Shown here piece after piece: positions 205-58,463 of a stretch of 64,000 nt of DNA; the stretch's first letter is position 1; the number at the start of each line of letters is the position of its first letter. This DNA is from Allacma fusca. Its lineage: Eukaryota; Arthropoda; Collembola; Symphypleona; Sminthuridae. The stretch is taken from the NCBI GenBank assembly GCA_947179485.1, contig OX359245.1, forward strand, positions 72,155,067-72,219,066, read 5' to 3'. The position numbers and the translations under genes are program-made. The notes below the pieces were generated by a model. That model saw nothing but the letters and a program-made list of their open reading frames with translations. It searched no databases and was not told the origin of the DNA.

Positions 205-1364
205 GTATAACCCAAAGGTGCACATCCTTCCTCGAAGGATAGGACTTATAAGCATATAAATAGGATAGGCATTAAAATCGAGCTTCTTATGTAGGTAGGA
301 TAGGATAGTAACCGAAATATTCAGCGTGCAAAAATAGGAATAGGATAGGCAACGTTTTGTACTGAAAATATAAAGGAATATAGGCAGGACTTGGTTTCAT
401 ATAAATGCTGCCTAAAATATAGGAAGGAATCCTCGGATTTAGTGTATATGTATGTCGGATAAGGGAGCGTCCATAAATGATGTCATTAAAATTTTGTATG
501 TTTTAAGAAGACCCCCTCATAATGCCATCACCTCCTGTCATCAAATAGTGTAGTGACGGACCCACCCATGATGATGACGTCAGCAAGACTGAGCGCACTC
601 CAGAATCACCCAAAAATTATGAATGTCTTACCTTTGTTAGGTGGAAACCATTGCAATACGATTTTCGCTGGAGGAGCCGTGGGTAATACATAACTTGCTA
701 ACAAGACATGCACAATTTTTGGGCGATTCTGCAGTATTTTCAGGCTCTTTAAACGTTGTAAATTCAGTGTGGTTTCTGCGGTTTCAGAATGAGTATTCAT
801 TAGTATCGTTGCGATTCATTCTTCTCAACAGCTTTAAAATATTTAATTTTCTTTTTCTGATTGCTGCTTAGTTTTTTCATTTTGATAGGTTTGAGCAATG
901 TTTAATTTTCCATACAGACTATTATGTCGAGTCGGAGGTGGTTAAAAGATGAATGAACAAATTAATTGATAAACTAATTGCTTGGTAATAATTTTGATTA
1001 AAATGCAGAAATTATCAATTATTAATATGTTGCTTACACTTTAACACATTGTTATTAACTTCCTGAGATAGTTGGATTTTTTAACTGATTTAAGGAGTAT
1101 ACATAAGTAATGTGCTGACGCAAAAGGATCGCTGGTCATACACAGAATGAAATTTATAGCATAGGAATAGGCATGTATGCTGCTATTGTATCCTTTATAG
1201 GAAATAGGTAGGCAGCTTGAGTAGGTTTGCCAATCCTATATCTATATATAGGGGGATCGAGAGTTTTCCATTACTTTAAATAGGATATGCAGGATGTATT
1301 CTTAGTTCCCATTTGTAGGAAGGTTATAGGAATGCGGACACATATGTGCATCTTTGGTATAACC
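205..1364. mobile_element. hAT-like non-autonomous element with ATAGGATAGG-rich ends
   Basis: The element proper is 213-1356. It starts CAAAGGTGCACAT and ends with the near-complement ATGTGCATCTTTG. Both sides carry an identical 8-bp direct repeat GTATAACC (205-212 and 1357-1364), which is the target-duplication length of hAT transposases. The outer 200 bp on each side (about 230-440 and 1140-1335) are made of degenerate ATAGGATAGG/AGGTAGG words; the middle is unremarkable AT-rich sequence with no transposase-like ORF. Superfamily assignment rests on TSD length and inverted termini only. Confidence 0.8.
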
Positions 1365-2092
1365 AATTGCAATATCTCGTATAACCCATATAACTATATA
1401 TAACTTTATTATAACTATACACAACTAACTATAACTCGTATAAACCGCGTTTGTAACTTAAACTCAGATATTTGTATTGACTTATAAATTTTCAAAATTC
1501 TAACCGCTAAATTTGGAAAAAATCGGGAATTTGGACCAGTTTTTTGATATGCCATTTTCGTCCTTTAGAAGAAATCATCTGAGATATTGTCCTCCCTTAG
1601 AACAATTTGCCTTACGTCGAAGTTTTTAAATAATTTCAAACAAAAATTACATCGTATCCTTTGCTGTTCAAAATTTCAAAAACAACGATTTTAAAGTCTC
1701 GAAACATTTTCACAAACTGGAATAATTTTAGACTCACAAGGTACATTTTGGTGGATGTTAAACTTTTTTAACGTATTTAATTGCTCTACAAGATTAAATG
1801 ATGTTAGGCTAAATTTCGAAATACTAGACAAATTGCTTGGTGGGGTATTCAAATTTACCAATTTTTGGATCAAAATGTTAACATTTAATTTTATCTAGAA
1901 GAATTATCTGATTTTTAGCCACTCTTAGGACAATTTATTTTTTGATAAAGTATTTGATAATATAAAAAGATTTCAAATTCATTCCGACTGGTGTTCAAAA
2001 TTTCGAAAAAAACTAATTTTCCAGCAAATTGAGATTCTCAAAAAACCCAAAAACGTTTAAAAGATATGATGTTTCTAGATCACTGATACCTC
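1365..2092. other. AT-rich non-coding stretch
   Basis: I see no supported gene. The ORF on the minus strand at 1691-1873 is short and low-complexity. Sequence resembles decayed intergenic or intronic DNA. Confidence 0.4.
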
Positions 2093-2228
2093 ATTTAAAG
2101 ATTACACCTCTAAACGCATAAAAGCTAAACGTATAACAGCTAATACGCATAATCAGCTAAACGTATAAGGTATCTAAACGTATAATCATCTATACGTATA
2201 AAGTATCTAAACGCATAATCGTCTAAAC
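2093..2228. repeat. CTAAACGTATA-type degenerate tandem array
   Basis: About nine degenerate copies of an 11-16 bp word (CTAAACGTATA / CTAAACGCATAATC) run up to the left end of the GTACCC element. The same array occurs at 6869-7015 and, inverted, at 8650-8825, each beginning in similar flanking sequence (ATTACACCTCTAAACGC at 2.1 and 6.87 kb). Confidence 0.75.
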
Positions 2229-4289
2229 CAGTGCTCGGACTGGGTACAGAAATTGTGTACCCGTACCCATACCCGAATTTCGGATACGACAAAATGCTGT
2301 ACCTATACCCGTACCCATACCCGAATACCCGGGTAAATTATTTCAGTACCCGTACCCATACTTGAAACTGCAATGTAGTACCTGTACGCACGAATTACCC
2401 GTAATGTACCCAAAACCTGTACCCATACCCGAGTACCTAGTGTTTGTACCCGGGTAATACTCGGGTACTGGAAGTTTGGCCAATCAAAAGTACCCAAAGA
2501 CATTTGCCTGTTCAGCTGAAAATGTTTAATTGTCCATTTTTCGACTTCCATTAGAAATGTCCGGAATTTTGAAAATTTTCCGTAGGCGTTAAGGGTATCC
2601 TATTTCAAATGGTTTAAAAAATCATTTAAAGTCATTTATGATTTATTTTAACACTGACGAAATTCAAATGCTACTACGTCAAAATATTAACTTACTGAAT
2701 GAAATGAATCGAGGGTGAGTACTCGGGTAGTACCCGCGTACTTGCGAGTACTCAAATTCTGTACCCGGGTAGTACCCATGCCAGTACCCATACCCATTTA
2801 CCCGAGTATTACCCGTACCCATTCCGAGCACTGGACTTGTGTTAAAAGATTTTTGAGAAAAGGATTTGTCACAAACAAAATTGTTTCATGTTCTCGAAGC
2901 TGGAAAGCAAGTTATAGAGAGTTTAGTATTAAAGAATTCGTCCCAATTGTGTATCCTTACACCATACAAGAATTTTTCAATAACCAATTCGCGAGAACTC
3001 ATTTCATTTCATTCAGCAAGTTACTATTTTGGCGTAGTAGCATTTGAATTTCGTCAGTGATCATTAAAAATAAATCACAAAAGGCCTTAAATGATTTTTA
3101 AAAATTGAAATAGAATACGATTAACAACTATGGAAAATTCTCAAAATCCAGGGCATTTTTAAAGAAGGTCAAAAAATTGATGAATTAAAAATGTTCAGCT
3201 GGGCAGGCAAATGTCGTCGGGGATTTTAAATCGGCCAAACTTCCAGTAGCCGAGTAATACCCGGGTGCAAACATTAGGTACTTGGGTACGGGTACAGATT
3301 TTGGGTACATTACGGGTACGAGTAAATTGTGGGTACAGGTACTACATTGTAGTTTCAGGTACGGGTACGGGTACTGAAATAATTCACCCGGGTACTCGGG
3401 TATGGGTACGGGTATAGGTACACCAATTTGTCGTACCCGACATTCGGGTACGGGTACAGGCAGGCGCGTAGCCAGGAATTGGCCAAGGGGGGGGCAACAT
3501 TAATTAGAACGTACCTATGTAAACTGACACATTCTATGGGAAATCCAATTCACGAATGTAAACCTCATCAAATTTTGCAAGCGTAATTTCAGATTTTAAA
3601 ATTATCCACGTTTTACGATTCCATCAAATTTGAATAATTTTGGACCAGATTTTTAATTGGGCTTGATCCGATTTCGGAGAATTTCGAGACCTGGGTTCGC
3701 TTCGCATTCAAATCACCCGCTAAGCAAGGATGAACACAATAAAAATATACTCTAGAATCACCCAAAACGTCTCTTTATTGAATGGTTTATTACCCACGGC
3801 TTCTTCCCGTCAAAAGTTGACCCATCCATACTCGCGAAAATCGTATCGAAATGCTTTTCCATTTCGATAGAAATTTATTGATCTAGAAATCCTTTGCTTT
3901 CGCAATGGACAAACATTGCGATACGATTTTCGCGCGTATGGATGGGTCAATTAATGACGGGAGAAGCCGTGGGTAAGAAATCATTCACACGAAACATGCA
4001 AATTTCATGGGTGATTCTAGAGTTATGCTGTTTATACAAAGATATTGACATGGAATACTGCATATGTTGAGTTTCGAAGTGATGTTTTTTACAAATAAAA
4101 AAAAATTGTACTGTCAAATCACTAAAAAGGTTTGCATGTCTCGGTATGAACTGATTTATTTTTAACGTTTTGAGTGATTTGAGAGTATTTTATTTCGAAT
4201 GGGGGGGGGGCAATTGCCCCATTTGCCCCCCCCCCTTGGCTACGCGCCTGGGTACAGGTACACGGTTTCGGTACCCAGTCCGAGCACTG
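2229..4289. mobile_element. GTACCC-word foldback element (hAT-like termini)
   Basis: Left terminus CAGTGCTCGGACTGGGTAC at 2229 is an exact 19-bp inverted match to the right terminus ending at 4289. Between them, 2240-2715 is repeated in inverted orientation at about 2993-3460, so the unit folds back on itself. An internal CCGAGCACTG terminus also occurs at 2824-2833, so two head-to-head copies may have fused. Both halves are rich in GTACCC/GGTAC words. No clear target duplication is seen at the outer ends (GTCTAAAC left, CGCTGGAG right). A second element (3461-4250) is inserted near the right end. Short ORFs here are word-repeat artefacts. Confidence 0.7.
3453..4258. mobile_element. hAT-like element CAGGCGCGTAGCCA, nested insertion
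   Basis: Element 3461-4250 has 14-bp inverted termini CAGGCGCGTAGCCA ... TGGCTACGCGCCTG, followed internally by G-runs and C-runs (GGGGGGGGCAA / TTGCCCC). It is flanked by identical 8-bp repeats GGTACAGG (3453-3460 and 4251-4258). The target lies inside the GTACCC element, so this insertion is younger. No transposase ORF. A truncated relative (right part only) lies at about 26635-26816. Confidence 0.88.
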
Positions 4290-5106
4290 CGCTGGAGTAA
4301 CACTCTGTATATACTTATTTTATTTTATTGCACAATGCTATTGTCAAAGATCCTATCGTGAGAGTGCGTATTTACATGTGTGCAGTATACTTATGATTGT
4401 ATTTTTCTGAAGGGTTTTAAAGCCAAATAAAAAATATGCCGACACAAGTAAGCCCCTTAAATTTCGTTTATTTATCTAAATCTTGTTCCAGTGAATTGTT
4501 GACTAAAATTAAGGCGTATAAGTGGCATTAAATACCTGGAAAATGATTACTTTTAAAAAGTATTTTAGATAATCCGGTAATAAAGCTATACAATGTTATT
4601 GATTGCAGTGATTCCTTGAATTGTCAATAGCTTAATGCGATGCATGAGAGGTAACTAATCCTAGGCTGTAGATAAATTCTTTTGCGTATTACTGACAATG
4701 AGCCGAAATTAAATGAAATCTTCATATCATATAATGTGTACCTTTGTGTATAGTATGCAAATATTTGTTATTACTATAAGGGTTACCCTGTGCAGTTTCT
4801 AGTAACATGAAAACGTGACAAATCCCTTTAATTTCCCTTGTGAAATGTGTGTACGTGACCATGTACAATGCTTACAATTGTTCTTAAACGCAAATTATTA
4901 GTGCATGGAATCCTATTGTGCCGGGATCTTTTGACAATTCTTGAAGACAAAAGACTCGATATTTTCAAAAGATTAACTCTGGAACGTAAACATCGAAGCG
5001 ATTAATAGTCATAATGCGGAGTTTATACTTTAATATACCCAAAAGTCTCACAGGGTTTACTATACCTCTATTATTCTTTATGATCTCACATCTCCAATGC
5101 CGGCCT
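4290..5106. other. intergenic stretch
   Basis: AT-rich sequence in which I recognise no gene, terminus or tandem repeat. Confidence 0.4.
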
Positions 5107-5975
5107 ATGTGTTAACACGCCAACAAACATGACTGATGATCGAAGAAGGGGCAAGGTGCCCCTGCATGTATGTATGCTGTTCGCTTTATAAGAACATACA
5201 GTTTCATTGCATGTACCCGTTATAATACACAACATCCCTGCACTGTCCCGCAGCCTCGCAAGCATTTTATATCACAACACACATACGCAGATTTAGCTAT
5301 AGAGGGAGTGTGTGAAATGTAAAGTTACAGGTCGGAAGAGAAGGTTTTTGCAGGCAAAGAATGAGATACGGGCTATGCACTGGACACAATTTTACCTGAC
5401 TATCAGTCGTTGCAGTATACACAAATACAACGATTCATCATCATCGATTTATCAGCGTACAGAACATTATCCCTAATAACACTTGTAAAAATTCGTCCCC
5501 AAACCTCATTTGCATACCGGTAGCGTACAAGGAGAGAAAAAAATCAGCATTACGTGATAAGTCGTTAAAGAGCGAAGCGTCACTATTGCATGTAAATTAG
5601 CATAAGCTAGTAACTATACGTTCTCCTCGTAAATAATTACTCTAAAAGGCTTATTATACATATATACCAGTGAGCGTAGTATTTTAAACTAAAAATTAAT
5701 TCGAAATTCCTGCATCTATCGTAATGAGTAATTATGCATCGATTAAATTTTGAAGAACGCTTACGCAAATATTAAAATAACTCATGCTCGAGTTTATGCG
5801 ACATCTACCGATTAACGGAAAAGACAATTTACGAATATTTAATAAAGATAATACATAACCATAATTTCAAATTCGCTTCATCGTTAAACAACCTGGACAT
5901 ATTTGTACTCTGGTACTCTCGAAAGCCGGCTCTACTATGCAACCTTACAGAGTCGATTCACCACCCAACTGTCCA
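5107..5975 (-). mobile_element. SINE-like repeat, long copy
   Basis: Read on the minus strand from about 5975, the head resembles a tRNA-derived pol III promoter (GTGGTGAATCGACTCTGTAAGG, then CCGGCTTTCGAGAGTACC) and aligns with the head of the copy at 17041 (+). The body also matches: the CAAATGAGGTTTGG segment (near 5510 and 17158), the CTATAGCTAA...TGTGTTGTGATAT segment (near 5270-5310 and 17378-17410), and GAAACTGTATGTT (near 5205 and 17457). The segment 5107-5208 occurs again at 6771-6862. This copy is longer than the 17-kb copy and is either interrupted or compound. Confidence 0.55.
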
Positions 5976-6307
5976 GACTACGATGCATCGCAGCGATGAT
6001 AAACTGACGTATGAAGAGTTCTGGATAGGAACTTTCAATTAAAGACTTATTCGGATTCGGGAAAAAAAATTACAAACAGAAAAGTAACTAATTTTTCGGG
6101 GTACATATTAAAAGTGACGAATTAACTTTCATATAGTTTTTCTTATTATTTCCGTCCTCCAAACTCATTCCAAAGACACTTGAAGCTCGATTAATGACAC
6201 TTAGCACGTGTTTGTTGCCCATGCCAATGTTTACCTTACGAAGGTAGACATAAATGAATCTCGTAGAAAATTTGGAACAAACTCCCTGAATTTTTTAAAT
6301 GTTGGCA

Positions 6308-6430
6308 TGTTTTCTTAATTAACCAAATCAATCTATAGTGGAAATTAATGTTTTCTTAATTAACCAAATCAATCTATAGTGGAAATTAATGTTTTCTTAA
6401 TTAACCAAATCAATCTATAGTGGAAATTAC
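6308..6430. repeat. 41-bp tandem repeat, three copies
   Basis: Three near-perfect head-to-tail copies of a 41-bp unit (starts TGTTTTCTTAATTAACC) at 6308, 6349 and 6390. Too few copies and no spacers, so not a CRISPR array. Confidence 0.9.
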
Positions 6431-6770
6431 AAATGCTTACAAAATAGGGAAATAGCATTTATGGAAGTTCAATCGGAATAAGATTTTATTAATTAATATT
6501 TAATACCTTAATCGAAAAAATATAAACCAAGGCTACCATGTTATATTAGTATTACAGACGTCCACATATTATGATACTTCAACGATTCTTGTTCATTATC
6601 AATTATTGGGATGTAATAAATTACATATACATAGGTATCTGGGTTAAGAATTTTGATCTTCATCACTGGATTCAAAGACATTCCGCAAATCTGTACCAGG
6701 TGATACGCAGGACACTTGAGTTGGTTCAATAGACGCGTCTACCATGCTCTTGGTCACACACATGTGTTAA

Positions 6771-6862
6771 CACGCCAACAAACATGACTGATGATCGAAG
6801 AAGGGAAAAGGTGCTCCTGCATGTATGTATGCTGTTCGCTTTATAAGAACATACAGTTTCAT
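6771..6862. repeat. dispersed repeat, second copy of 5107-5208
   Basis: About 92 bp running from ATGTGTTAACACGCC to ATACAGTTTCAT match 5107-5208 in direct orientation with few differences. The segment is the 3' part of the SINE-like family and abuts the CTAAACG foldback. Confidence 0.75.
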
Positions 6863-8827
6863 GATTACACCTCTAAACGCAAAAAAGCTAAACGTATAAC
6901 AGCTAAACGTATAAGCTCAATACGCATAATCAGCTAAACGTATAAGGTATCTAAACGCATAATCACCTATACGTATAGGGTATCTAAACGCATAAGGTAG
7001 CAAAATGTATAATAATGTACAAGTATATATTGACATTCGTTTGAAGAAGGGCAGTATTTTAATTCAGGGATCAAAACAATATTCTACACATAAATAATAT
7101 AATGTTCTACACATTCCCTTGCAGCAGCATCGTCGTTAAAGGGATCAAATTGTCTATTGTATATTAAACCCATGTTAACATGTAATTTAAATAAAAGGAA
7201 TATATACTAATATTTAATAATAATAGTCTAAGTACAGGCAATGTGTACAGGCAAGTCCTCTAACTCTAATAGTCCCAAGTATGCATTCTAACATTCTGTC
7301 AGTCCACTCAGTCGTGTAGTATCCATGCGTTAGTCCCTACCAGTCTCAGTCCTAGCAAAAATCTCAGTCAGTCCATTATGTATTTCGTATGCATTTAAGT
7401 CCAGAAGAGTACCACGTGTTGAGCATACACGTCTTCATGGACTCAATGTCGACAATTTTATTACTTCTCGAACTCACCATTTGCAATAATTTTTTTACAT
7501 TCAGTGTACTAGTAATTTGATAAATAATTATGGAAAGAACAGGTTTTAGCACATATTGGCTAAAAGTCTAAATAACGGAAAAAATACTGGTCGAATAATA
7601 AAAAATTTCCAGATTTTCCAAAAATACCCGCAGCTCCAATACTTTATCACGTTGTCAAACATTTCAGATCCTACAACCTTAATTTTGGTCAAAATTTTTC
7701 CCTTACCGCATTTCTTTTAATTTGGCTCCGGATAGAGTTTTTTGTCTTATTTGTTTCATATTTTTGCTGGCGTCTCAAAATACAATACTATTACAGGGAT
7801 CGTCTAATATACATACGTGCAAACTGTCATTGAAATTTTCTAGAACCAAGCGCCAAAATTAATTTTTTCAAGCAGTTTTAGGATAATAGCAAATATAATT
7901 TTGAATTCCCGATTGAATGATGATCTTATTTATTTATTATCCTGCTTCAATGAGGTCACCGGAGCCAAAAATGTAACGCATGGTTTAATTTTTTTATATT
8001 CAATTTTACTTACTAAACTAAACTTTACAGCATTTCAGCGGAAATCCTACAAGAATTCCAGCAAACATATTAATTTTGAGTTTAGAAAAATTCAGGGGTG
8101 GATTTACGGGGTGGCCCACCCTGTAAAACATTTAGGGCCAGGGTAACACAAATGTTGACTAAGGCCCTCAGATTACATACATAAATGCAAAGGCCCACAA
8201 ATCCATTTTGGGGGTTAGGGCCAGGGTACAAATTATTTTATTAATCCACCCCCGGAACAATCCATACGTGTACCCTTTTTGTGGCTCAAATTACCCAAAC
8301 GTTGACGCAGTTCAATGACGTAAATTTTGGAAAAACTTGGCAAGATCGGTTCAAGAAAATCAAATATATTATAAGCCACTCCCGGAAATATAGTCAGGCA
8401 AATATCAGTAACTGGCGTAAATACTGATTTTTACGGGGTCATCAACGGCTCCTGATAAACAGTGGGATTCAAACTATTTGCGTGCGTTTTACCTGTACGC
8501 ATTGCCTGTACGTAGACTATTTTCCTTTTATTGAAATTACATGTAGACGTTGGTTGAATATGCATAAGACAATTTGGTCTCTTTAGCAACGATGGTCTTG
8601 CAAGGACATGTATTAAATGTAATTACATATAAATGCTTTTAAATAGATACCCTATACGTTTGGCCGATTATACGTTTTTAAAGCCTATACGTTTAGACGA
8701 TTATATGTTTAGATACCTTATACGTATAGATGATTATGCGTTTAGATACCTTATACGTTTAGCTGATTATGCGTATAACTCTATGCGTTTAGCTGTTATA
8801 CGTTTAGCTCTTTATGCGTTTAGCTAG
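6863..8827. repeat. foldback structure with CTAAACGTATA arrays as arms
   Basis: The left arm (6869-7015) and right arm (8650-8825) are inverted copies of the degenerate CTAAACGTATA array also present at 2093-2228. They enclose about 1.6 kb of AT-rich DNA without a convincing ORF. The arrangement fits a word-satellite element like the others in this window, but I could not define exact termini or a target duplication. Confidence 0.5.
8085..8262. mobile_element. small MITE, CAGGGGTGGATT termini
   Basis: Element 8093-8254 (162 bp) starts CAGGGGTGGATTTACGG and ends TTAATCCACCCCCG, imperfect inverted termini. Flanking octamers GAAAAATT and GAACAATC agree at 6 of 8 positions, consistent with an old hAT-type target duplication. 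The interior repeats GGGCCAGGGTA twice. Confidence 0.5.
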
Positions 8828-8829
8828 GA

Positions 8830-10170
8830 TACCCATTTAAAAGCTACTTACGTGCTCTATAAGCTGAAATAATGCCAACCGAAATTTAAAAATTATAGTC
8901 CAGGCCATGGATATTCAAATTTACCAATTTTTACCCCAAAATTCTTTTTACCAACAGGGAAGAAACTGAGACTCCGCCCCCCAGAAAAAATTGTCTTCCA
9001 AAAAAGTTGTTGAATAATTTAAAATAATCCAAATCATCCTTATGGATCTTAAAAATTTTCAAAAAGCACATTTTGGAAGCGATTGTGAAAGTTGAAAAAA
9101 CCACAGTACATTTTGACCTGGCTGTCACAATAACTCGGTTAATAATACCCCATTAAAAAGTTGTATAATTGCTTTAAATCCTAAAACCATTTCGAACAAA
9201 ATTTCGAAATCCTCGTCCTTATTTTGGCAGGATATTCAAAATCATTAATTATTTTAACCAAAATTTTCTCTATTTTGCCTGAAAGAAATCATCTGAGAGC
9301 TGGCCATCCAACTATACTTGTGGTCATCTAAGAGCTCATTATAAAGCTCTTAGATATATATAAAGCATTAAAAACTTAAGTATTTTCACAACAATAAAAG
9401 TATAAAATATTATATATTAATTAAACCTTTACATTATGCTCAGAAACGCCGACTTGACATATATTCCCACAATCTGAACATTTTCTTCAGGGTATAGAAA
9501 ACATTATTATCATTGTATGCTCATAGAGTTAAAATCTGACGGAATTATCCCGTGAATTAATTTCTGAATTCGATTGAGAATAATGAGTCGCACTCAGACT
9601 CTTTCCTCAGTTGAGATTGAAATCAGAGAAATCCTTACTCATGATTTCCACACGCTCTAGAATTAGATCACGCTCGCAAATTATAATAATTATGCACCAG
9701 TTCTTCAATTAGTTTTCTTCTTCAGGAATGAAAGATTCAATTAATTGATTTTTATCAACACTCATCACCAATGACAATGATTGATGAGCAAACTTTGAGT
9801 ATACGTTCAGGATTCATTCAGTGTTCCCGTTAAATAATTATGCAGATGTAATTATTAAAGAATGAGTGAGACATGGTCTGCAGATAAATTACGCTTATCT
9901 CCCATTCAGATATCTGAATTTTTTTTTAATCAGTTGTAGCTGATAGGGGCGATATTCGGTGCTTGAAAAATATCTACTTCATAATAACCAATAAATAATT
10001 ATTATATTCATACAAAACTGTCAAAATCTAATCCCTTTGGGATATCTTGCTTATTGACGATTAATCAGATAGAAGAGCTACAGAGCGCACATTGATGTAC
10101 ATCCGCACCTGGAAATAATAGGAACTCTTTGTATGTTGTTACAGCAAAAGTCATTCCCCCATAAATTCAA
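8830..10170. other. intergenic region upstream of the crystallin gene
   Basis: AT-rich. I see no gene. A minus-strand ORF at 8931-9128 lacks any recognisable feature. The last 200 bp before 10176 presumably contain the promoter of the crystallin-like gene, but no motif stands out. Confidence 0.35.
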
Positions 10171-10175
10171 CCAAA

Positions 10176-10937
10176 ATGAAAGTCTTAATATTTCTATCAG
10201 TCCTTGCCTTAGGAGCTGCTGTGATTCAGGAAATAATTCTTCACGAGAGTAATAATGGTGATCATGATGGGAACTTCTATACTTTTCGGAGGGGAATCCC
10301 AGACGTTACTATTTACCCCTTTGCAAAGGACATTGTTCGGTATTGTCAAAAGTCGAGGTAAATATAATCCTTAAATTATTTTAGGATCACTTCAACCCTT
10401 CATACGCTTTTAATAATTACATTATGCTTCTGAAAATTGGTAAAGCTAATTATATCATAGAATGTTTGTTTGAAAACAATTACTAGAGTTACCTTCTACT
10501 CCGGTATCAATTACACGGGGTCAATATATAACAATTTTGAGGGACAGTTATGCTACGCCTTTGATTCGGGATTGCTCAAATCCGCCCGTTTTCATGGGAA
10601 TTCAAATACAACAATGGACGGCGTGAGCCTCTACCCTGAAACTAATTTACGAGGAGACGAAATCCATGTTGACCGGTCACCATTTGCAGGGATTACCCAA
10701 AAAGTTTCGTCCCTGGGATATACGGGGGGATCAGCCTGGACTGTGTTTGAAGGGATTAATTTCAATGGCAAATCGTCATGTCTCAAACCAGCGACATACA
10801 TTAGCGATTCGTCTTATTATTATAACATCACGAGGGATTTAAACGTCACTACCATCGGATCCCTTTTCAAAGGCTGCGTCACACATGTGACTCCAGAGAT
10901 AAGAAGACAGCTGCTGGAGGGAGCTTTCAAAAATTAA
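10176..10937 (+). CDS. secreted beta/gamma-crystallin-domain protein, two exons
   Basis: Exon 1 is 10176-10357 and exon 2 is 10487-10937. The donor G|GTAAAT and the acceptor TACTAG give a phase-2 join, yielding 633 bp and 210 residues. The N-terminus is a textbook signal peptide (MKVLIFLSVLALGAAV). From about residue 61 the sequence shows Greek-key crystallin strands: VTFYSGINYTG, a central segment with DGVSLYPETNLRGD, then WTVFEGINFNGKSSCL. Each matches the beta/gamma-crystallin pattern (aromatic-x-x-x-x-aromatic/G-x-G near a Ser/Cys). Residues 20-60 are not recognisable. Secreted crystallin-fold proteins of arthropods are poorly characterised; a structural or calcium-binding extracellular role is inference. 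No neighbouring gene suggests a pathway. The ATG is preceded by ACCAAA, a good context. Confidence 0.85.
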
Positions 10938-11318
10938 TTAATTTGTGAATTATGATGAACAAGAATGAACTAGTAAAAAGCCCTGCTTCGCAGGAGTAAT
11001 TGCTTCGTGTTCAGGCATAAAACAGTGAGATTGAAGCTAAATTAGAACATTAGCACATCACAAAGTTGTAATTATCATGGTTGAGCGCACATGGAAACTA
11101 TCCACCAAGGCCCTGCCCATGCCCCATGTTCGATCCGTAGATCGCAGCTAGGAGTTAGTCCCGCATATCGGAAGATAAAGTTATTCATCGATTTACAACT
11201 TCTTTAAATACAACGTTCGTTGTAAATTATTCATTACATAGAACATAGTACATAGAAAAACTCAATGAAATTCTGGAATGTTAACCAAATTTGCAATCCA
11301 CGGTGGAATCAAATATTT

Positions 11319-11767
11319 CTGTGAAGTAGGGCTTCTACTCGGGACGGGACCGGGACAGTTTCGGGACCAACGATTTGTCCCCATGTTATTTCGGGACTGA
11401 ATCGGGACGAATTTGTTTGTCCACAAGATTTCGGGACGGGACGGAACAATAGATCGGGACAGAAACCAATACCTGTGCAGTATACTATTGCTGTGAAAAT
11501 GAATAGTTATGGGAATCGTTTTATATGTAAATATTTTTTAAAGTAATATTTCGCTATTATTGGAGGTATTCTTAAAGAAATCAAGAAATTTGGAGCATTT
11601 TATAAGACTGGTATTATAACCGGGACGGGGCAGTTTCGGGACAAAATGTTTGTCCCCATGCAATGTCGGGACTGAATCGGGAAATGTTTTTGTCCCGAGG
11701 ATCTCGGGACGGGACGGAATTGTCGACGGGACAAAAAATTGTCCCTAGTAGAAGCCCTACTGTGAAG
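11319..11767. mobile_element. hAT-like GGGAC-word element with perfect TSD
   Basis: Element 11327-11759 (433 bp) has termini TAGGGCTTCTACTCGGGAC ... GTCCCTAGTAGAAGCCCTA and is flanked by identical octamers CTGTGAAG (11319-11326 and 11760-11767). The ends are full of GGGAC/CGGGAC words. The core (about 11480-11610) is AT-rich and matches the core of 35204-35727. Non-coding; the 11600-11788 ORF is an artefact. Confidence 0.9.
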
Positions 11768-12081
11768 AGAATTTTTGTACGTAAACATACTGACTCTTGA
11801 CTAACTAAACTAATTTAAATTGTGTGCATTTGTGTTTTATTACATTTCCCGTTTTTCATTTAAATCTATCCTGCCGCTCGGTTACATCCAACATGTATAA
11901 GCTTCTTTGGTAGAAGTATTGTTTTAGTAGCTCCGTTTCTAATTCATTAGAAAACGTTAAGCGTTTACATCTATGACTCACATACTTACAAACTTACAAT
12001 TAGGTAGATATTAGAAACCAATTATTCAACAATAATTTCATATATATTACAGACTAACGTTAAGAACAATTGCAAATATAT

Positions 12082-12215
12082 TAGAGACTCAAAATAATAA
12101 TGAGTGCGGAATAGTTCTGTCAATAGAAACAACATAAAATTCGGGATTTAGAGACTCAAGATAATAATGAGTGCGGAATAGTTCGATCAATAGAAACAAC
12201 ATAAAATTCGGGAGT
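12082..12215. repeat. 67-bp tandem duplication
   Basis: Two copies of a 67-bp unit (TAGAGACTCAARATAATAATG ...) at 12082 and 12149, differing at a few positions. Confidence 0.9.
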
Positions 12216-14261
12216 TTTCCAACCACGTACAAATTTTAGCGAAGCATTTACTCACAAAGATTACTATTGTGAAGTTATTTGATGTTGGCTTCGGTCCGAT
12301 TATTTTTCCGGTACCTTATTTCTGACTGAAAACCAAGCAAGAAATTCATGAGGAATTTTAGCATCATAGCTTTATATAATGCTGACATTTCAATACAGTC
12401 ATAATATTTAGGATACTTGAGATAATTGGAATACTCAATTTTGAAAATTGAGTACAGTGAAAAACAAATGTTTTCACCAATATTACATATAATCAAAATA
12501 CTTACACTGTCCCGAATTTTTATCCGCACCCGCAAGTCTCGAGCTAGCGTTAACCAAATGTTTGTGGGTGAGCAATGCCATACCTCTGGAAAATATTTGA
12601 TCCCGAAATATTAGTAATCACAAAGGTTTCCAGAAGTCTCATTGTTAAATAACATAAGTTAAGAATATTTTATTTCCCCAAGAAATGAACAGGATTATCT
12701 TCAAGCACCCGTATAGTTATGTCATTGATTATTCAATTTCCCAACTTCGCCTAGATTTGTGATTCATTGTGCAACCTGAAAAGTAAAAATAAAACCAGGT
12801 TCACCTAAATGAATTCATTTGAAATTCGGAAATAATAGCATTTCTTTTATGACAGTTTTTACTGTCATTATTATATAAGTCAATCAAAATTACACAATGG
12901 CACTGAATTAATGAAATCTCAAAATGGAATATAAATAAATAAACTCACATAACGATTAATTAAACGGACGTGTAGACATTTCAGTAATTTGGAAGCGATG
13001 GGTACACTTAATGACTACGAAGGATGCAGGATAGTGTGGTTCGACTTGATTTGATTGTGACCATTGTTTGGCATGCCACCTTTTGGGCGTCGTGTAATGT
13101 TATTGAACTATGAAAGTGCGAAACTTTAAATAAATGGACAGAAAGTGCTCTTTAAAAATAAAGGATTAAACCTATTTCTGGATTTTTACGTTAATGAGAG
13201 CGGCTCAGAAAGCTATATTAAATGAGCAGCTTTAATTAATGATAATGTCGTACTACGTATTTATTGTATTATAGACCATTTTTGGGTCGCAGGGGTAACA
13301 AGCTCCTGGAAGCTAGGCATTTTTAGAAAGCAAGCGTCTCATTCTCAAGTAAAACTAAAGTTATCAAGTTTTTTGATGCTCATTTGTGAAAATGTGTTTT
13401 TGGCACTGCTCCATGATAGGAGTAATACACAACTTTCGTATTGTTAGTGGGGCTACTTTATTATGTATGATATTATCTAGTAAGTTTCTGATGAATTAAT
13501 AAACGTATAACGCAAGCAGAATCTCAATTTGACATAGGGGAAATGATTGTGTAGGAAGAGAACTTAGGCGTTCCTATATCAGCATAGTTTCCAACCAATA
13601 TCCATAATCACCAGCATCCTAATATTATACAGGCAAAATGAACTGGGTGCAAGCCTCTTTAAAAGCAAACTGATCTACATACAATTTTCCTTAAAAGCAA
13701 AATGATCTAAGTGCTGGTATATTTTTTTTTGTGAGAAAACTAGCATCTGTAAGGAGGACACGTGGCTTATAAGGACTAACCATGACTGTAATTGACCTAG
13801 GGTTGTGGGTTAATATTCTCTGAAGGGTTTGCTATTACCTTCATATATATATTATTGGATCATTCCGGCAACTAAAGTTAATTTCACTTATTGTATCTAA
13901 TACATTTTTAGTTACGAAAACTGCAACATTCATTTATTTCAAAATCGACGAATTAAAAGACGAATCAAAATCACAGTAAGCTAATGTGTGTGCACATTGA
14001 ATTGGTTTTCCCTTTAATAATTCTCAACGAGGAGTTTTTTCAAATCGTATTCTACGATCATCACCATTATCATAACATTCGGAATCATTTTCAAATGTTA
14101 AATCATAATTGACAACTTGTTTTTCAATGTTACTGAAAGAAAGAAATGGAGGCTTTGGGGAATTAAATGCATATATAAAAAATTTTTGAATACCTCGCAT
14201 TTTTGTACACCGGCATTAGAATGTGTTTACTTATATTGTTTTTATTATAATTTGTATCTAC
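12216..14261. other. long non-coding stretch
   Basis: No supported gene, element terminus or satellite. The short ORFs on both strands near 12275-12614 overlap each other and carry no motif. Confidence 0.35.
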
Positions 14262-14915
14262 AGTGCCAGTCAATTGAAGTTGGACGCCCAACGTTATTTT
14301 GAATAACTGCTAATAACGTTTTACAGAGTTACGCGAATCTTGTCAAAAATTCAGGTTTTAATACCGAACATATGGGGATTCGATACTTGTACGTATTAAC
14401 GTACACAGTACATCTCATACACTGTAAAAAAATTTCAAAAAAAATTGTTTTAAAAAATCGGCGCCATTTGAAGTTGGACGATTGCATTTAACTAATTTTT
14501 TACCTCAATTCCAACTTAACTACTGTACTTTAGTACCACGTAGGCCTACCTCTGACTGCTAGGACAGCTGCTATCCTCCTAAGCATGGTCCCCACTTGCT
14601 TCCGGGTAACCTCGGGGGAATCTTTCCCCGTATTTCGGTGACCAGATTTTTCGACGTGGGTTTCCCAGAAATGTTGAAATTTTGCAACTCCATCTCAATA
14701 AAATATCAAAATTGTTCAATTGGGATCATGTCTGGGCTTCTGAATTCTGAATGTTACCAAGCAATATTGGATTGCAATATCAAGCCTGCTGCGCAAAAAC
14801 TTGGTCTAGGTTGCCGTTTTGTTTCAGGAGGATAATGATCCTAAACACACATCTAAGTTAACATCATCATTCTTCCAGAAATTTTTTTTTGGTGATGAAA
14901 TGGCCAGCACAAAGT
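14262..14915 (+). mobile_element. decayed Tc1/mariner-family transposon
   Basis: The left end CAGTGCCAGTCAATTGAAGTTGGACG resembles a Tc1-type terminus, and its AATTGAAGTTGGACG motif recurs at about 14467. Downstream, two plus-strand frames carry transposase remnants. The frame ending at 14835 holds a segment ending KLGLGCRFV. Shifting one frame from there gives VLFQEDNDPKHTSK, the conserved second-Asp region of Tc1 transposases, followed by SSFFQKFFF. The DNA-binding domain and the third acidic residue are not found, and the right end is not visible, so this is a frameshifted, deleted relic. Confidence 0.75.
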
Positions 14916-14935
14916 TCACAGTTAGTTCAGTTGGT

Positions 14936-15232: not shown

Positions 15233-15239
15233 ATTGCAA

Positions 15240-40485: not shown

Positions 40486-40530
40486 AAAGTATAAGTACTT
40501 ACATATTTTTACTACATACGTCAATGCCAG

Positions 40531-51389: not shown

Positions 51390-52290
51390 CTATTTACCAG
51401 AGGTGTGGAATATTTTGAAATTTTGTATTTGAAATAGTATTTGAAATACATTTAGTATTTAGTATTTTTCTAGCCGTAAATTGTTTAAGGTATTTTGTAT
51501 GTAGTCAGCACTAACATGTCTACTGTATTTTGCATTTCGTATTTTGAAGATTACGAACGTGATAGTATTTTGTATTTATTTATCTTGTAAAGTTTACCCA
51601 CCCCGTATTTCAAATACAAAATATAGTTTTAAAATCCATTACTCTGGCAATTGTTAAGGTCGTCTCTAAAACATATTCAAATAAATATTTTGAAGGTAAG
51701 AGCACTAATTTAGAACATTTTGAAACCAGTTTTTGAAACTTGTTTGGCGGAGGGTTTCTGAGGCTGAGAACTAAAAAGTTAACTAAATTGGTGACTCGAA
51801 TATAAATACATTACCCAGGAGTTAAGATTATTTGTTTAAGGGAAAATATTCTTTACCTAGGGACATGTTAATTTACTCACACACAAATGTGATACACACA
51901 AATGCACAACTCTAAGTCAAATAACTTGCAGTTACCTTGCGTTAGCCGATTCATGTTTAAATGTCATATTATTTGGCCGAATTATACAAAATACGTTGAG
52001 AGAATAAACTGTAAAAAGCCTCAGATGTGTACTTTGAGAGTATTTTTATTATAAATTTCGTATTTCAAATCCGGTATTTTATATCGTATTTTCTCTTTTT
52101 GTCGGCAGCAAAATATCTTATTTTGTATCTTGCCCAGATGACTCCGAATATTTGTATTTTATTTTGTATCTTAACTAAGTTGCACCTGGTTTTTGTATTT
52201 TATACTTGTGTTTTAACTTTTTTGTAAATGTATTTGTATTTTGCATTTCAATAGTAAATTGCATGTATTTTCCGCACCTCTGTTTATTAC
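51390..52290. mobile_element. hAT-like ATTTTGTATTTG-word element (copy B)
   Basis: Element 51398-52282 starts CAGAGGTGTGGAATATTTTG and ends TGTATTTTCCGCACCTCTG. Flanks CTATTTAC and TTTATTAC agree at 5 of 8. Same family as 38274-39207 but inserted at a different point of the duplicated sequence, so the two insertions are independent. Confidence 0.8.
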
Positions 52291-52496
52291 TCATATTTAA
52301 GACAATTACCAGGACGCCTTCGATCCAATGCCGGAATTCAGCCCTTGCAAAAATAAACGAAAGACTAGATCGTATGGAAATTAGTAATGCATTGGGAATT
52401 AAGTATTCTTGAAGGTAAACTAAAGATTACGTTGTGCTAGCTGGAGATAGTTTGGAATAACAAATTACTGATGCGTAATGCTCATACAATTTTAAC

Positions 52497-53177
52497 CAGA
52501 GATGTACAAATGAAAAAGTCTTCCTTTAAACCTTCGAAGGGATTTTTTTGAAAAACGCATTCCTTCATCTTTCTTTTAAATGAAGCCTTTAAAATATAAT
52601 TCATTACCTCAGCCTTATTTTGCTTATTAATTTAATGCCTCCAACCTTCAGCCCTAAATAAAATCAGCCTTTGCCACTCAGCCTTCATAACACGAAATAT
52701 CATAACAATTTATTTAAACAGCCCTTTTGCATGGCAAACACCTTAAAATAAGCAATAAAATTCAAAATTGCACGATTACTAGGGATGTCATTAAACAATC
52801 GTACTCAAATTCGTCCGAAGCATAAATTCCATGAGTATATCAATAGCTGGTTACTGTTTTTTATTGTGCATGTGCATAAAACTATGTACATCATGCAGTT
52901 GCAGTGTTTTCAGTAGCACTCTCATTGTTTTATTTGTGACACGATCTATTGTCTTAATTGTACATGCAAAGCCTTTTAAATAGCAGAGGGATTTTTTACA
53001 GACGTCCTTCCTTCCCCTACCACTTTTGGTTAATACAAGGAAGCCTTCATATAGCCTTCCCAAATTAATTCAACCAAACTGCCTTCCCTTCCCAATTCTC
53101 TGAAAAATTGATCTTCCGTCTTCAGCCTTCAATGATGCCTTCATTGAAGGCTAGCCTACGAAGGCTGGACATGTCTG
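52497..53177. mobile_element. putative word-repeat element, CCTTC/GAAGG
   Basis: Starts CAGAGATGTACAAATGAAAAAG and ends GGACATGTCTG, with short imperfect inverted termini. The ends are full of GCCTTCA/TGAAGGC words (52520-52700 and 52980-53165). No target duplication seen. Confidence 0.45.
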
Positions 53178-53250
53178 CTTCAAAAGTTCCTCCCCTTCAT
53201 CAATTGCATTTAATTTTGTTCCTTCAGCGGAATTTGTCAATCATTTTTCT

Positions 53251-54898
53251 CTATTTTTCAGGGCTGGAGTATTCAAAAAAATATGGATACAATTCCGATT
53301 AAGACTAATCGTAACGGGTTCCAATCATAATTCAAATTTATTTGTTTCTTGAAATGAAAATTCCAATACAATTTATTCAAACATTTTCTATAAATCTCAA
53401 TACAATTCAAATATTTTCTATAAAATTTCAATACAATTCAAATATTTTCTATAAATTTCAATACAATTGAAATATTTTCTATAAAATTTCAATACAATTC
53501 AAATATTTTCTATAAATTTCAATACAATTCAAATATTTTCTATAAATTTCAAAACAATTCAAATATTTTCTATAAATCTCAATACAATTCAAATATTTTC
53601 TATAAAATTTCAATACAATTCAAATATTTTCTATAAATTTCAATACAATTCAAATATTTTCTATAAATTTCAATACAATTCAAATATTTTCTATAAATTT
53701 CAATACAATTCAAATATTTTCTATAAATTTCAATACAATTCAAATATTTTCTATAAATTTCAAAACAATTCAAATATTTTCTATAAATTTCAATACAATT
53801 CAAATATTTTCTATAAATTTCAATACAATTCAAATATTTTCTATAAATTTCAATACAATTCAAATATTTTCTATAAATTTCAATACAATTCAAATATTTT
53901 CTATAAATTTCAATACAATTCAAATATTTTCTATAAATTTCAAAACAATTCAAATATTTTCTATAAATTTCAATACAATTCAAATATTTTCTATAAATTT
54001 CAATACAATTCAAATATTTTCTATAAATTTCAATACAATTCAAATATTTTCTATAAATTTCAATACAATTCAAATATTTTCTATAAATTTCAATACAATT
54101 CAAATATTTTCTATAAATTTCAATACAATTCAAATATTTTCTATAAATTTCAATACAATTCAAATATTTTCTATAAATTTCAATACAATTCAAATATTTT
54201 CTATAAATTTCAATCAATTCAAATACTTTAGGTAAAAAATTTCAATACAATTCAAATATTTTCTATAAATTTCAATACAATTCAAATATTTTCTATAAAT
54301 TTCAATACAATTCAAATATTTTCTATAAATTTCAATACAATTCAAATATTTTCTATAAATTTCAATACAATTCAAATATTTTCTATAAATTTCAATACAA
54401 TTCAAATATTTTCTATAAATTTCAATACAATTCAAATATTTTCTATAAATTTCAATCAATTCAAATACTTTAGGTAAAAAATTTCAATACAATTCAAATA
54501 CTTTAGGTAAAAAATTTCAATACAATTCAAATACTTTAGGTAAAAAATTTCAATACAATTCAAATACTTTAGGTAAAAAATTTCAATACAATTCAAATAC
54601 TTTAGGTAAAAAATTTCAATACAATTCAAATACTTTAGGTAATAAATATTAATACCTTTTTTTAAGTCAAAACCAAACCCAAACGTAGCTTAAATGCGTC
54701 ACATACATATTGATACAGTATTCAAATATAATTTAAATACTAATTCGAATACAGCTATTTCATTTCGATTCAATACGGATTTAAATACTTAAAAAAATAT
54801 ATTTAAGTATACCACTTCCGATAAAAATGCCAAAAAATAGGAATGAAATACCGATTCCAATTCTAATTCCGTTTCGAATGACCAGCCCTGCTATTTTT
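53251..54898. mobile_element. hAT-like element carrying an internal 30-bp satellite
   Basis: Element 53259-54890 (1632 bp) starts CAGGGCTGGAGTATTC and ends GAATGACCAGCCCTG, with exact flanking octamers CTATTTTT (53251-53258 and 54891-54898). Interior: about 100 bp of left sequence, the satellite (53370-54650), then about 240 bp of right sequence with GATTCCAATTCTAATTCCG words. A related terminus with the same right-end sequence lies at 63377. Confidence 0.92.
53370..54650. repeat. 30-bp satellite array with 32-bp edge variant
   Basis: About 40 units. The main unit is 30 bp (AAATTTCAATACAATTCAAA plus TATTTTCTAT). A few units at the left differ by 1 bp. Near 54210-54240 and again from 54455 to 54650 a longer variant with ACTTTAGGTAAAAA replaces TATTTTCTATA, forming a homogeneous run at the right edge. 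The 30-bp period keeps the minus strand open (205 and 81 codons of a 10-residue repeat), which is a by-product. Confidence 0.97.
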
Positions 54899-55475
54899 AC
54901 TGGTGATAACCCGATTGCTAATAGTGAGGAATTATACCGGAAACTCCCTGCAAAATCTACACAGCTCTCTGTAAAGATTCCTGTAAGGAAACGTTCGACG
55001 GAAAATTGTCAGTGAGAATGTATAGTGAAAACTAGTGGAAATAAATTATAGTTGATGGGTCAACCAGGTTATTGAATGCAAGATTTTTTGAAAACAGAAG
55101 TTTGGAAGGGAGCTGTGGTTTTTATAAAAATCATCCTCACATTTTTTGTTTGCAAGTTTGAAATGCAATTAGTAATTAAGTTATCGCTTGCTTCAATTGG
55201 TTCAGTTTTTACTTTCAGAGTTGTCTACTAAGTTGCGATTGTTGCAAATATTTTGTTACAAAGTTGCAATTTTGAATTTTGCAATTCCCCGCTTATGTAC
55301 GTATACCCTTAAGCTGAGCTATGATTAAAACGAGGTCTCTGTGGTCAAAGCATGAAATGAAATATGTACATTCCTCAAAAAAGCTAAAATGCCGGAGAAA
55401 GCACAGAAATATTTCACGCAAAAAGCAAAATAAGAATTGCAAAGTAAATTACCTGGGAAACAATTCCTCGAAGTA

Positions 55476-56306
55476 CAAATACACAGAGCTGTGCAATATT
55501 TTCAAATAAAGTATTTTAAAATACGTACTTTCAGACCACAAAGTATTTTGTATTTAAAAGTTGGTAAGCAGTAAGCAAGTATTTTGTACTTAGTATTTTG
55601 AGAGCCAGGAAGTACAAAAGTATTTCGTATTTACTTACTCTCAATGAAATGGAATGATGTAATTCAAATAAAGTATTTTGCTCAAAATACTTTTCGCTGG
55701 TATTATTTGTGATTTTGACACTGTATGTAGCTTATACGATGAGCAAAATATCTGTGAAAATTCCATTTTACACATTGGAATAACATACGGTGGAATGAAT
55801 CCCTTGGCTACATCAAACATGTTCAGATTCTCGATACTGCATATTGTCGTTGAAGAGGCGAAATGGTCTACGTGCGTATGGTTTTTACAGCTCAGACCAT
55901 TTTGCCTCTCCAACAACGATATTAAAGATACGCCGAAGACGAATACCTACTCGATTTAATTTCCAGTTACTAGCCCCTTTTTATAATAATTATTCCGAAA
56001 ACACATTTCATTTACTACTTAATAAAAATTTCATATTAATATGTTACTTGATTAACATTCAAAACGACTTAAAATATAATTGTAATGGACAGACCTATTC
56101 AGCAACCGTTGAACAATTTGTTACTACGCATGTCTGATACGCAGTCTTTTAAATTGTCTACCAAGTATTGTGTTTTTATTTGTATTTTAGCAATGTCACC
56201 TGAAGTATTTTACTTTGTATTTTGTATTTTCCATATTTTAATTCGGGTATTTAATTTTGTATTTTGGCATCGAAGACAAAGTATTTTGCATAGCTCTGCA
56301 AATACA
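55476..56306. mobile_element. hAT-like element CAGAGCTGTGCAATATTTT
   Basis: Element 55484-56298 (815 bp) has termini CAGAGCTGTGCAATATTTT and AAAGTATTTTGCATAGCTCTG and exact flanking octamers CAAATACA (55476-55483, 56299-56306). The duplicate at about 28235 is an empty site lacking this element. Related by its TATTTTGTATTT words to 38274-39207. A long hairpin lies inside at 55841-55922. Confidence 0.9.
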
Positions 56307-56703
56307 AATATAATGCGATGAGAACATTTGGAAATACCAGAATACAACTATTAGAAAATAATCTCCTCTCGGGTTCTCAAATTGCGCATTTAAAAAGACT
56401 GTGTCAAAATGATTCATATGTCTACCATCAAGAATTTCCAATTTGGGTGAAGGCGCCGCTGTAATTGTCTTCCCGTGGAGTGACAATGCACTCTTCACAT
56501 TCTAAAATAGTATTCAAAACAGTAATTCAACATCATCAGCTTTCTGAAAAAATGCTAATTCAAAATTTTGTTCACTTTTGAAAATCAGTATACTTCCAGA
56601 AACTAGTGGTACTGAGACGCAAATTTCTCCATTGATTATTAAGCAATGCATTGAAATTGATACTTAATATAGGAATTATATTTCCGGATGAATTTACATA
56701 ATT

Positions 56704-56913
56704 TTAATACTTAAAATCTAATTGTAAGTATACTGCATCGAGTTTTGCAAATATGTGGGACACCGAGGCGAGGAGCGACTCGTAAATTATTTGATTGTCC
56801 CTCGTGGCTGGAAACATAATTTCTGGTTTACTAAAATCTCCAACATTGTTAATTTTAAGGTCACCGGGGTCAATGACAGTGAAACAAATGGGGTTTCTTG
56901 CAGTGCTCGGCAC
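56704..56913 (-). pseudogene. unidentified gene fragment, copy 2
   Basis: ARNPICFTVIDPGDLKINN followed by KPEIMFPATRDNQII, homologous to 27645-27829 (+). The conserved reading frame between the copies suggests real coding ancestry. The ATG lies in the adjoining GTACCC element, so it is not the true start. Family unknown. Confidence 0.45.
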
Positions 56914-57145
56914 AGGTATGGGTAATACTTGGGTAAATGGGTACGGGTATGAGTATGGGTACTATCTGGGTACCGATTTTTGGTACCCGAACAATTCCGG
57001 GTACTACCCGGGTACACCTTGGTCGGCTCAAAATTTCGGGTATGCATACGGGTATGGGTACGGGTACAAGAATTTCAAAACGGGTATATAATCACCTGGG
57101 AAGGGTATGGTGGGGTCACATACTCGTAGCGCGGCCATTGTACCG
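56911..57145. mobile_element. GTACCC-word element, copy shared by both duplicates
   Basis: Begins CAGTGCTCGGCACAGG at 56911; the same terminus (CCGAGCACTG) ends at about 27641 in copy 1, at the homologous position. Insertion therefore predates the segmental duplication. The other end is degenerate. Confidence 0.7.
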
Positions 57146-57822
57146 GAGTATTTGGGTACATTGAGACATTTTGATGAATTTTATGTCATCATGCCCGTAC
57201 GTTGGAAGTTTTATTTCCTAAACATTTTCTAAAAATGGTATTTTTAGTAATTTTAAATACATGTAGCTTATTGTTAATACCCTTTTAACCTTATAACAAA
57301 TAGTAAATGTATGTATTTTGGAATGTGAAGCTAAAATATATGCTTTTAGTTAAACAAGTTTTAGGAATTATAAATAAATAAACGCAAACGAAGAATAATA
57401 ACAAAACAGAAGTGGAGAATAGGATTCAGCGAAATTTTGTACAAACCGTTTTCATAATACAGTATGTTATTGTCACTAATTACAAAAAGAATATGTAACA
57501 CACTTTCATAAAGAATATGTGACACACTTAGTTGATATTTAATTAGTCACAATGAATGCAATTTACAAATTAGAGTTCTGATGAGTTAGATGGCAAGTTA
57601 TTTTGTGTTATTGGTAGTTGATAAGGAGAAGTTTTTTATTTGTTTTTTACCGGTATTTTTAACTAGATATTAATGAGTTATATGTAGACAGAGCTACTGA
57701 GATGAGAAAATTAGTGGAAAAGGCGTAAATCAAGAAGTGAAAAATCGAGTCGCCAAATCCAAAACCTGCTTGTTAGTTATCTCTATGTACAAAAATACAT
57801 ATACATACATATGGGCTGGGTG

Positions 57823-58463
57823 CAGAGCTTCTAATGGGGACAAAATTCCAGCCCCGTCCCCAAGAATTTAAAAAACAGTTGTCCCCGGTCTCGTCCTGCA
57901 AATCGGGACATGGAGAAACTTCGTACAAGAAAATATATGTACCAAAAACATAAAAACGCATTTAAAAAATCGTAGTTCCCAGATTCCTCTTTAAGACAGC
58001 TTAGCTTACGGCCATATTTCAACAAGCAGTACTATTATCCTTCTATTTCGGCCACCAAAATTATTCTATCGCTCAAGTTTCGAATCCGTTGTCAAATAAT
58101 GCGATGATTACTTACTTCAGTAATGATTGTAAACATGTCATATTGTGTTGTTCAGAACGTTATACATGTAAAATAGTGTTCACATATTAGTTTACGCATG
58201 AGCATAAAAAGCTGAAACGTTATCCTTGTTCCCCTATGCTTGCTCGTCCCGTTATACACACGGCCAAATGGCATGACCCGTCCCGAATTTAATGAGAACA
58301 ATTTTTTTTGTCCCCGTCCCGTCCCAAATATAATGTGGAAAATTTGTCTGTCCCCGCTCCGTCCCGAATACGATATGGGGACATTTATTTTGTCCTTGGG
58401 AACGTCCCGCACCGGTTCGTCCCGTCTCCCGACGTGACGTCCCCGTCCTCGGTAGAACCCCTA
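57823..58463. mobile_element. hAT-like GTCCC-word element
   Basis: Starts CAGAGCTTCTAATGGGGAC and ends near GTAGAACCCCTA. The core (about 57970-58230) matches 30960-31310. Flanks GCTGGGTG and GCTGGGCT (a few bases beyond the right end) are similar. Old copy of the 29463-31595 family. Confidence 0.7.

Follow-up and report, generated by a model that had tools for sequence, protein, structure and literature searches.

Candidate hAT-type elements of Allacma fusca carry family-specific short words on a shared polar layout of their ends

A stretch of 64,000 nucleotides from the collembolan Allacma fusca (GenBank assembly GCA_947179485.1, contig OX359245.1, positions 72,155,067 to 72,219,066 of the forward strand; hereafter the window) contains a suite of small insertions in which one short word recurs subterminally at both ends, a feature of hAT ends. 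This feature was found in 12 of 14 elements examined, which comprise seven of the nine insertions listed in a preliminary description of this DNA and five further elements (E3 and E11 are excluded, E2 is kept). The insertions, their words, the subterminal zoning of the words, their polarity and their positions at one type of end can be read directly from the DNA. The elements are probably non-autonomous transposons of the hAT type, and their words putative sites for the BED fingers of several unseen transposases.

The evidence for insertion lies at the tips. The preliminary description had reported 8-bp duplications at inverted termini, and an exact 8-bp direct repeat does abut the inverted termini in all nine insertions that it listed. 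A tenth exact duplication, GTTTCTTG around 56901-59493, was found by a mechanical pair scan requiring an exact 8-bp repeat and at least 10 of 12 matching terminal bases, with ten Markov-1 sequences as controls. The scan returned 10 pairs in the window against a control mean of 0.4; five are insertions already listed, one is new, and four look like products of chance or of the words. Four listed insertions, whose termini match less well, were missed. Other repeat lengths also gave more pairs in the window than in the controls (5 bp, 10 vs. 1.3; 6 bp, 6 vs. 0.3; 7 bp, 15 vs. 3.1), and a looser scan gave 12 in the window against 2-9 across eight controls. Because word-rich DNA also generates such pairs at other lengths and looser settings, the pair count is weak evidence alone, and the case for insertion rests on exactness at the tips. 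Three kin of other elements (E8, E10, and E14, related to E4, E9, and E5, respectively) and the fold-back element E2 were added through self-comparison and reading. Exact 8-bp duplications thus flank 10 of the 14 elements; the flanking repeat is imperfect or unclear for E8, E10, and E14, and none is visible for E2.

Elements of the hAT superfamily have short inverted termini with a YARNG-type tip, and tips of the CAGNG or TAGNG kind together with 8-bp duplications are typical of them. Tips of the YARNG type here are TAGTG, TAGGG, CAGAG, CAGTG, CAGGG, and CAAAG; AAGAG (E9 left), CACTG (E13 right), and CAGGC (E3) are not of this type. The 14 elements are listed below by window coordinates, with no strand assigned. 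The end names LE (left end) and RE (right end) are borrowed from Hermes, a hAT element of the housefly. Polarity is given as the bases covered by words beyond +34, read inward from each tip, as sense/antisense for the left and then the right end.

E1, 213-1356: word ATAGGA/TCCTAT; duplication GTATAACC; left end LE-like; polarity 0/39, 30/10.
E2, 2229-4289: words GGGTAC/CGGGTA; fold-back with two outer ends both LE-like; hosts E3; polarity 16/93, 11/96 (antisense at both ends, an exception).
E3, 3461-4250: duplication GGTACAGG and tip CAGGCGCGTAGCC; carries poly-G close to its ends and no family word; lies within a word of E2.
E4, 11327-11759: word GGGAC; duplication CTGTGAAG; left RE-like, right LE-like; polarity 30/5, 10/25.
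E5, 29463-31595: word GGGAC; duplication CTGCTTTC; left LE-like, right RE-like; hosts E6; polarity 5/59, 69/20.
E6, 29538-30727: words GTACC/ACCTG; duplication GTCCCCAG; left LE-like, right RE-like; polarity 16/73, 60/11.
E7, 32297-32703: word GGTCTGG/GGTCC; duplication CTTCCAGC; mixed orientation, an exception; polarity 30/20, 30/30 (ambiguous).
E8, 35204-35727: GGGAC element, kin of E4 (77%); flanking repeat imperfect; polarity 45/10, 20/35.
E9, 38274-39207: word AAATAC; duplication GGCGTCAG; left RE-like, right LE-like; polarity 48/12, 12/36.
E10, 51398-52282: AAATAC element in the opposite orientation to E9 (70%); duplication unclear; left LE-like, right RE-like; polarity 12/54, 48/6.
E11, 53259-54890: duplication CTATTTTT; interior a 30-bp minisatellite; not a word element.
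E12, 55484-56298: word AAATAC; duplication CAAATACA; left LE-like, right RE-like; polarity 12/42, 36/0.
E13, 56901-59493: word GGGTA(C); duplication GTTTCTTG; left RE-like, right LE-like; hosts E14; outside the earlier list; polarity 79/21, 10/45.
E14, 57823-58463: GGGAC element, kin of E5 (74-83% in pieces); imperfect flanks sharing GCTGGG; left LE-like, right RE-like; polarity 5/9, 45/5.

The words were recovered by a search that was blind to those of the preliminary description and excluded the terminal 25 bp, with rougher boundaries for E2, E8, E10, and E14. Its leading words were ATAGG, GGGTA/GTAC, GGGAC, ACCTG/GTACC, GACCA (of GGTCTGG), and AAATAC; the words are family-specific and five to seven letters long. 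The best 5- or 6-mer of each of the 12 word elements has a log10 P between -12.2 and -48.8, whereas 239 overlapping 900-bp segments outside the elements have a median of -3.8. E1, E9, E12, and E14 (-12.2 to -14.4) do not pass the single worst control by enrichment alone. The two worst control regions score -15.5 (CCTTC, segment from 52351) and -11.2 (TACTA, about 39601-40500). The first owes its rank to a CCTTC-dense stretch beside E11 (52960-53250; 18 copies vs. 1.1 expected in the segment), which is possibly itself part of one more word element, and the TACTA-rich region contains a microsatellite.

That most of the listed insertions carry a family word proved correct for seven of the nine. 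The insertion at 3461-4250 (E3) has poly-G only, which gives it a log10 P of -13.0. The one at 53259-54890 (E11) is filled by 41.4 copies of a 30-bp unit (53375-54636, Tandem Repeats Finder), and its leading k-mers are absent from its termini. E11 alone is mostly satellite; it has the tandem-repeat interior of a satellite-filled miniature inverted-repeat transposable element. In the word elements, words concentrate in the outer deciles of both ends, and their values in the two middle deciles are 0-0.07 in 11 of 12 (E2, 0.36 and 0). Words cover 8-35% of element length (zoning and cover were measured with the same rougher boundaries for E2, E8, E10, and E14), their spacing is irregular with recurring intervals of 5-7, 11-13, and roughly 28-35 bp, and Tandem Repeats Finder detects an array in only three of the 12 (29692-29731, 31370-31530, and 58277-58370). 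The near word-free middles and the scarcity of arrays rule out the earlier view that the words fill the interior as satellites and make up most of the element. Its companion claim, that the word stands at or just inside the terminus, agrees with the data: one or more of the six leading k-mers fall within the terminal 25 bp in 11 of 12 word elements, and the word of E1 begins just inside.

The words also have a direction. In 10 of the 12 word elements (about seven families and four words), the words run mostly in sense direction at one end and mostly in antisense direction at the other, which places them mainly on a single strand of the whole element despite its inverted termini. Long inverted repeats made of repeats, as in Foldback and Galileo, are therefore not the rule here, as words are direct at both ends in these 10. 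E2 is the sole fold-back element (arms 2260-2708 and 3460-3003, 84% in self-comparison); a further RE-like end at 2834 is a word-rich inner stretch of it. It is also the sole LE/LE element, and it shows no duplication, which we count in favor of the explanation given below.

Position relative to the tip was scored at 22 typed tips, 12 LE-like and 10 RE-like. A sense word starts at +13..15 in 15 of the 22. Among LE-like ends this holds for 9 of 12 (mean 0.025 for 3-bp windows over +35..150; naive P 8e-13). Ten of the 12, representing four different words, have an antisense word that begins at +27..29 (mean 0.171; naive P 1e-6). The two ends that miss the latter position, E9 right and E14 left, each have by eye a word there with one mismatch. 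A family-level shift test, which takes in the right end of E7 (assigned LE on a tie), gave P 0.0024 for the sense and 0.010 for the antisense position of LE ends. The right end of E14 was one base short in the polarity and position analyses, and its RE positions are consequently one too low. Deeper inside, there are 44 sense words with an antisense word after them. In 11 cases, all in E4, E5, E6, and E8, the distance is 14-15 bp; the tip module therefore recurs within the arrays of these four.

In the explanation that we favor, each family would be mobilized in trans by its own transposase. The catalytic core would hold the outermost ~14 bases, and the word would be the short subterminal repeat recognized by the N-terminal zinc finger (BED) of the transposase. 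The outermost word of most tips reads inward from +13..15; the LE then has an inverted word near +28, followed by an array of that orientation, and the RE stays inward. These directions leave most words on one strand and the two ends distinguishable, which Hermes needs for productive pairing. Families would differ through exchange of the word, the layout being retained. Membership in hAT, binding by BED fingers, separate transposases, and a role for the deeper words are the parts that we infer.

A number of results weigh against this explanation. No hAT transposase domain was found in the scanned parts of the window, namely six-frame scans of 4301-19300, 25301-29460, 29461-32708, 32711-37710, 39211-44090, 51391-56300, and 59501-63999 (~41.7 of 64 kb), with the rest covered through open reading frames (ORFs) of at least 110 aa (18 of 31 scanned) and the middle of E13, scanned in 10 of 12 frames with sub-threshold Pfam matches only. 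E7 departs from the polarity described above (30/20 and 30/30 bases covered), and the three AAATAC LE ends lack the sense word at +15. The RE-like ends show no position lock: a sense word occurs at +13..15 in 6 of 10 and at +40..42 also in 6 of 10, and the RE shift test was not significant (P 0.70). In addition, 4 of 10 RE-like ends have an antisense word at +81..84 (3-bp window mean 0.03; naive P 1.5e-4), perhaps in part through relatedness of the elements. Since the same scoring gives such a value to a meaningless-looking position, the naive P values are inflated; they are also too good because families share related tips and are hence not independent.

Conservation adds less than it appears to. 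Between related copies, words are retained better than other k-mers, but this raw contrast is partly ascertainment, as a word intact in one copy may have mutated only in the other lineage. Shared/union words are 16/21 for E4/E8 (neutral expectation 0.51, P 0.017), 11/24 for E5/E14 (0.45, P 0.55), and 12/28 for E9/E10 (0.23, P 0.017). After neutral correction the conservation is only modest, and strong word conservation between copies was dropped as a claim. The Hermes study (PMC10368747) also counts against a requirement for deep sites. Mutation of putative inner LE sites left ~70% of activity, so that the deep words here may be dispensable, and its authors consider extra transposases binding inside the ends unlikely, although an LE scrambled beyond 50 or 140 bp gave little or no activity. 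Moreover, the quasi-palindromic pair of Hermes falls within A15-T23, whereas the inverted LE pair here is spaced ~14 bp apart.

The same layout could have arisen with the words as passive passengers. A short array next to the tip would have expanded through slippage, unequal exchange, or faulty gap repair; its two halves would have kept their direct orientation as parts of one array, the middle would be later filler, and the many copies would need no binding function. An array of this kind between inverted tips would likewise put its words on one strand and create an inverted pair at one of the ends. E4 and E8 each carry a ~120-bp direct-repeat module at both ends (11345-11465 with 11621-11737, 81%; 35230-35356 with 35560-35686, 93%; self-comparison), one of the three pairs keeps its words no better than the neutral model predicts, and E11 together with a 45-bp repeat at 22320-22549 shows that minisatellites do grow in such DNA. 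Nonetheless, we regard this as unlikely. Word spacing is irregular, arrays are detected in few of the elements, and the AAATAC elements are polar although their self-comparison (E up to 1e-6) lists no internal direct repeat. The LE antisense position is common to different words, and the layout appears in outline to be that of Hermes.

Two further alternatives are less plausible. Words could act as a sink or recruitment surface that titrates or attracts transposase in trans, in competition with autonomous copies, rather than marking ends. Their number, far above the three copies needed in the 5' end of Ac (PMC3260210), and the suggestion of the Galileo authors that multiple sites may offset element length and give specificity (PMC3688188) fit such a role. 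A sink needs neither a fixed polarity nor an LE position, yet both are observed, and we consider it improbable. It is more improbable still that the elements represent a different superfamily that also makes 8-bp duplications (e.g., P- or Merlin-like) and that the words are sites of another zinc finger. The lack of a transposase in the scanned parts would suit it, as would Galileo of the P superfamily, whose long inverted repeats carry several THAP sites, but the word layout resembles that of Hermes. The tips and 8-bp duplications also point to hAT. The proposal of hAT elements with amplified, putative binding repeats near their ends thus stands as the best reading, on the strength of the 8-bp duplications, the YARNG-type tips, and the polarity and position of the words, two features that the preliminary description had not remarked on; the filling of the interior does not belong to it.

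A more general reading, which we judge less likely than not, may be offered tentatively: hAT ends would follow a word-independent grammar, and several transposase systems here would have diverged by joint exchange of the word at all sites with the grammar kept. This grammar would consist of an inward word near +15 at both tips, an inverted word one fixed step further on at one end only, and deeper words on one strand. If true, mutually private transposition systems would exist side by side, with a natural record of co-change between zinc finger and site. Such families bear on why hAT elements need long, repeat-rich, non-interchangeable ends. Several word families on a shared layout amount to a natural mutagenesis of the ends, revealing positions that are kept as the word changes. 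The word alone would predict which transposase moves which element, and matched sets of orthogonal transposon ends are a possible yield.

Several observations concern individual elements. E6 landed exactly within the host word GTCCC of E5 (duplication copies 29530-29537 and 30728-30735), E3 exactly within the host word GGTAC of E2 (copies 3453-3460 and 4251-4258), and the duplication of E12 includes its own word AAATAC; these numbers are too small to claim a preference. Within E3, the stretch 3749-4023 is palindromic (78% to its own complement) and is perhaps a further small element; similar motifs are seen by eye inside E1. The family of E11 has left a 91% copy of its right end at 63377-63560 and a stretch resembling its 30-bp repeat at 29118-29204. 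The tandem repeat at 22320-22549 (45 bp, 5.1 copies) has a unit ending in GAATACTCCCTG, which resembles the complement of the E11 tip, and seems to be a minisatellite containing a transposon tip. An inverted duplication (82%) of 26813-28222 and 56300-57783 extends over the left end and flank of E13, with a copy of the tip at 27641. A further word family, CTAAACG(T/C)ATAA, occupies 6863-8825 in inverted arrays, where 11 of 11 words have plus orientation at the left and 0 of 11 at the right; a lone left array of it adjoins E2 at 2109-2228. This family was not counted among the 12 word elements, as its words are inverted and no convincing duplication is visible by eye.

No gene was seen inside the small elements. 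Elsewhere, the window contains copper-monooxygenase exons, a LINE-like reverse transcriptase, and a BEL/Pao-like ORF (23952-25202, minus strand) whose three relatives in protein search, at up to 59% identity, all come from Allacma fusca. Segments at 17717-18690 and 42037-43213, repeated in opposite orientation, lie in the copper-monooxygenase regions and are likely duplicated host genes; a DOMON ORF with one relative in protein search lies nearby. An Rfam search gave no match. In a pattern scan of viral contigs, all six matches were single sites with 2-3 words within 400 bases in contigs of 0.48-0.66 GC content, and were taken as chance.

The preliminary description knew of no named class defined by such words, which is too strong, as Ac/Ds (AAACGG), Hermes (AAG(T/C)), and Kat1 (TGAATT) all use repeated subterminal words. 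Among the open-licence literature on word-filled or repeat-rich hAT elements and on hAT elements of Collembola, nothing was recognized as the present elements, which does not establish their absence from print. Hermes has 17 AAG(T/C) sites on the left and 14 on the right; of its subterminal repeats (STR), LE-STR1 is sense, STR2-7 are antisense, and RE-STR1-5 are sense (PMC10368747). Symmetrized LE/LE elements had little activity in cells and RE/RE none, and asymmetry restored in the first 50 bp failed to rescue the symmetrized element (PMC10368747).

In outline, the layout described here appears to be that of Hermes with a wider inverted pair. Both have many short sites in both ends (BED sites in Hermes, putative here) and a first word inward from ~+15, LE-STR1 aligning with RE-STR1. 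Both have an inverted pair at the left tip, and the Hermes ends are not interchangeable. The later sites are antisense on the left and sense on the right, hence on one strand, provided that "sense" in Hermes means inward from the tip, as we take it from the stated alignment of LE-STR1 with RE-STR1. Unlike the elements here, Hermes has one more site within its right terminal repeat. The present elements differ in their word, in that no transposase gene was seen in the scanned parts, and in having several words in one genome.

Other systems share parts of this organization. The AAACGG repeats bound by Ac lie within 200 bp of its ends (PMC3260210), and Ac/Ds elements of maize, in particular the Ds-l4 class, resemble the present ones in their 8-bp duplications, short tips, subterminal repeats, unrelated middle filler, and size of ~1 kb; in contrast, Ac/Ds has one word family-wide (PMC3260210). 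The DNA-binding parts of hAT proteins recognize diverse words, and for all four hAT proteins with a motif, that motif was present in the subterminal regions of their own element (PMC8097297). The target of Kat1, a domesticated hAT protein of yeast, contains the hexamer TGAATT six times (12 at 5/6 bases) with a polarity that differs between ends, as here, but it is a single locus with few repeats (PMC4763223). Galileo of Drosophila and Foldback likewise have several binding sites in repetitive ends, the sites here being putative (PMC3688188). Subterminal repeats as such are familiar from hAT elements; what is new is that several words share a single polar layout within one genome.

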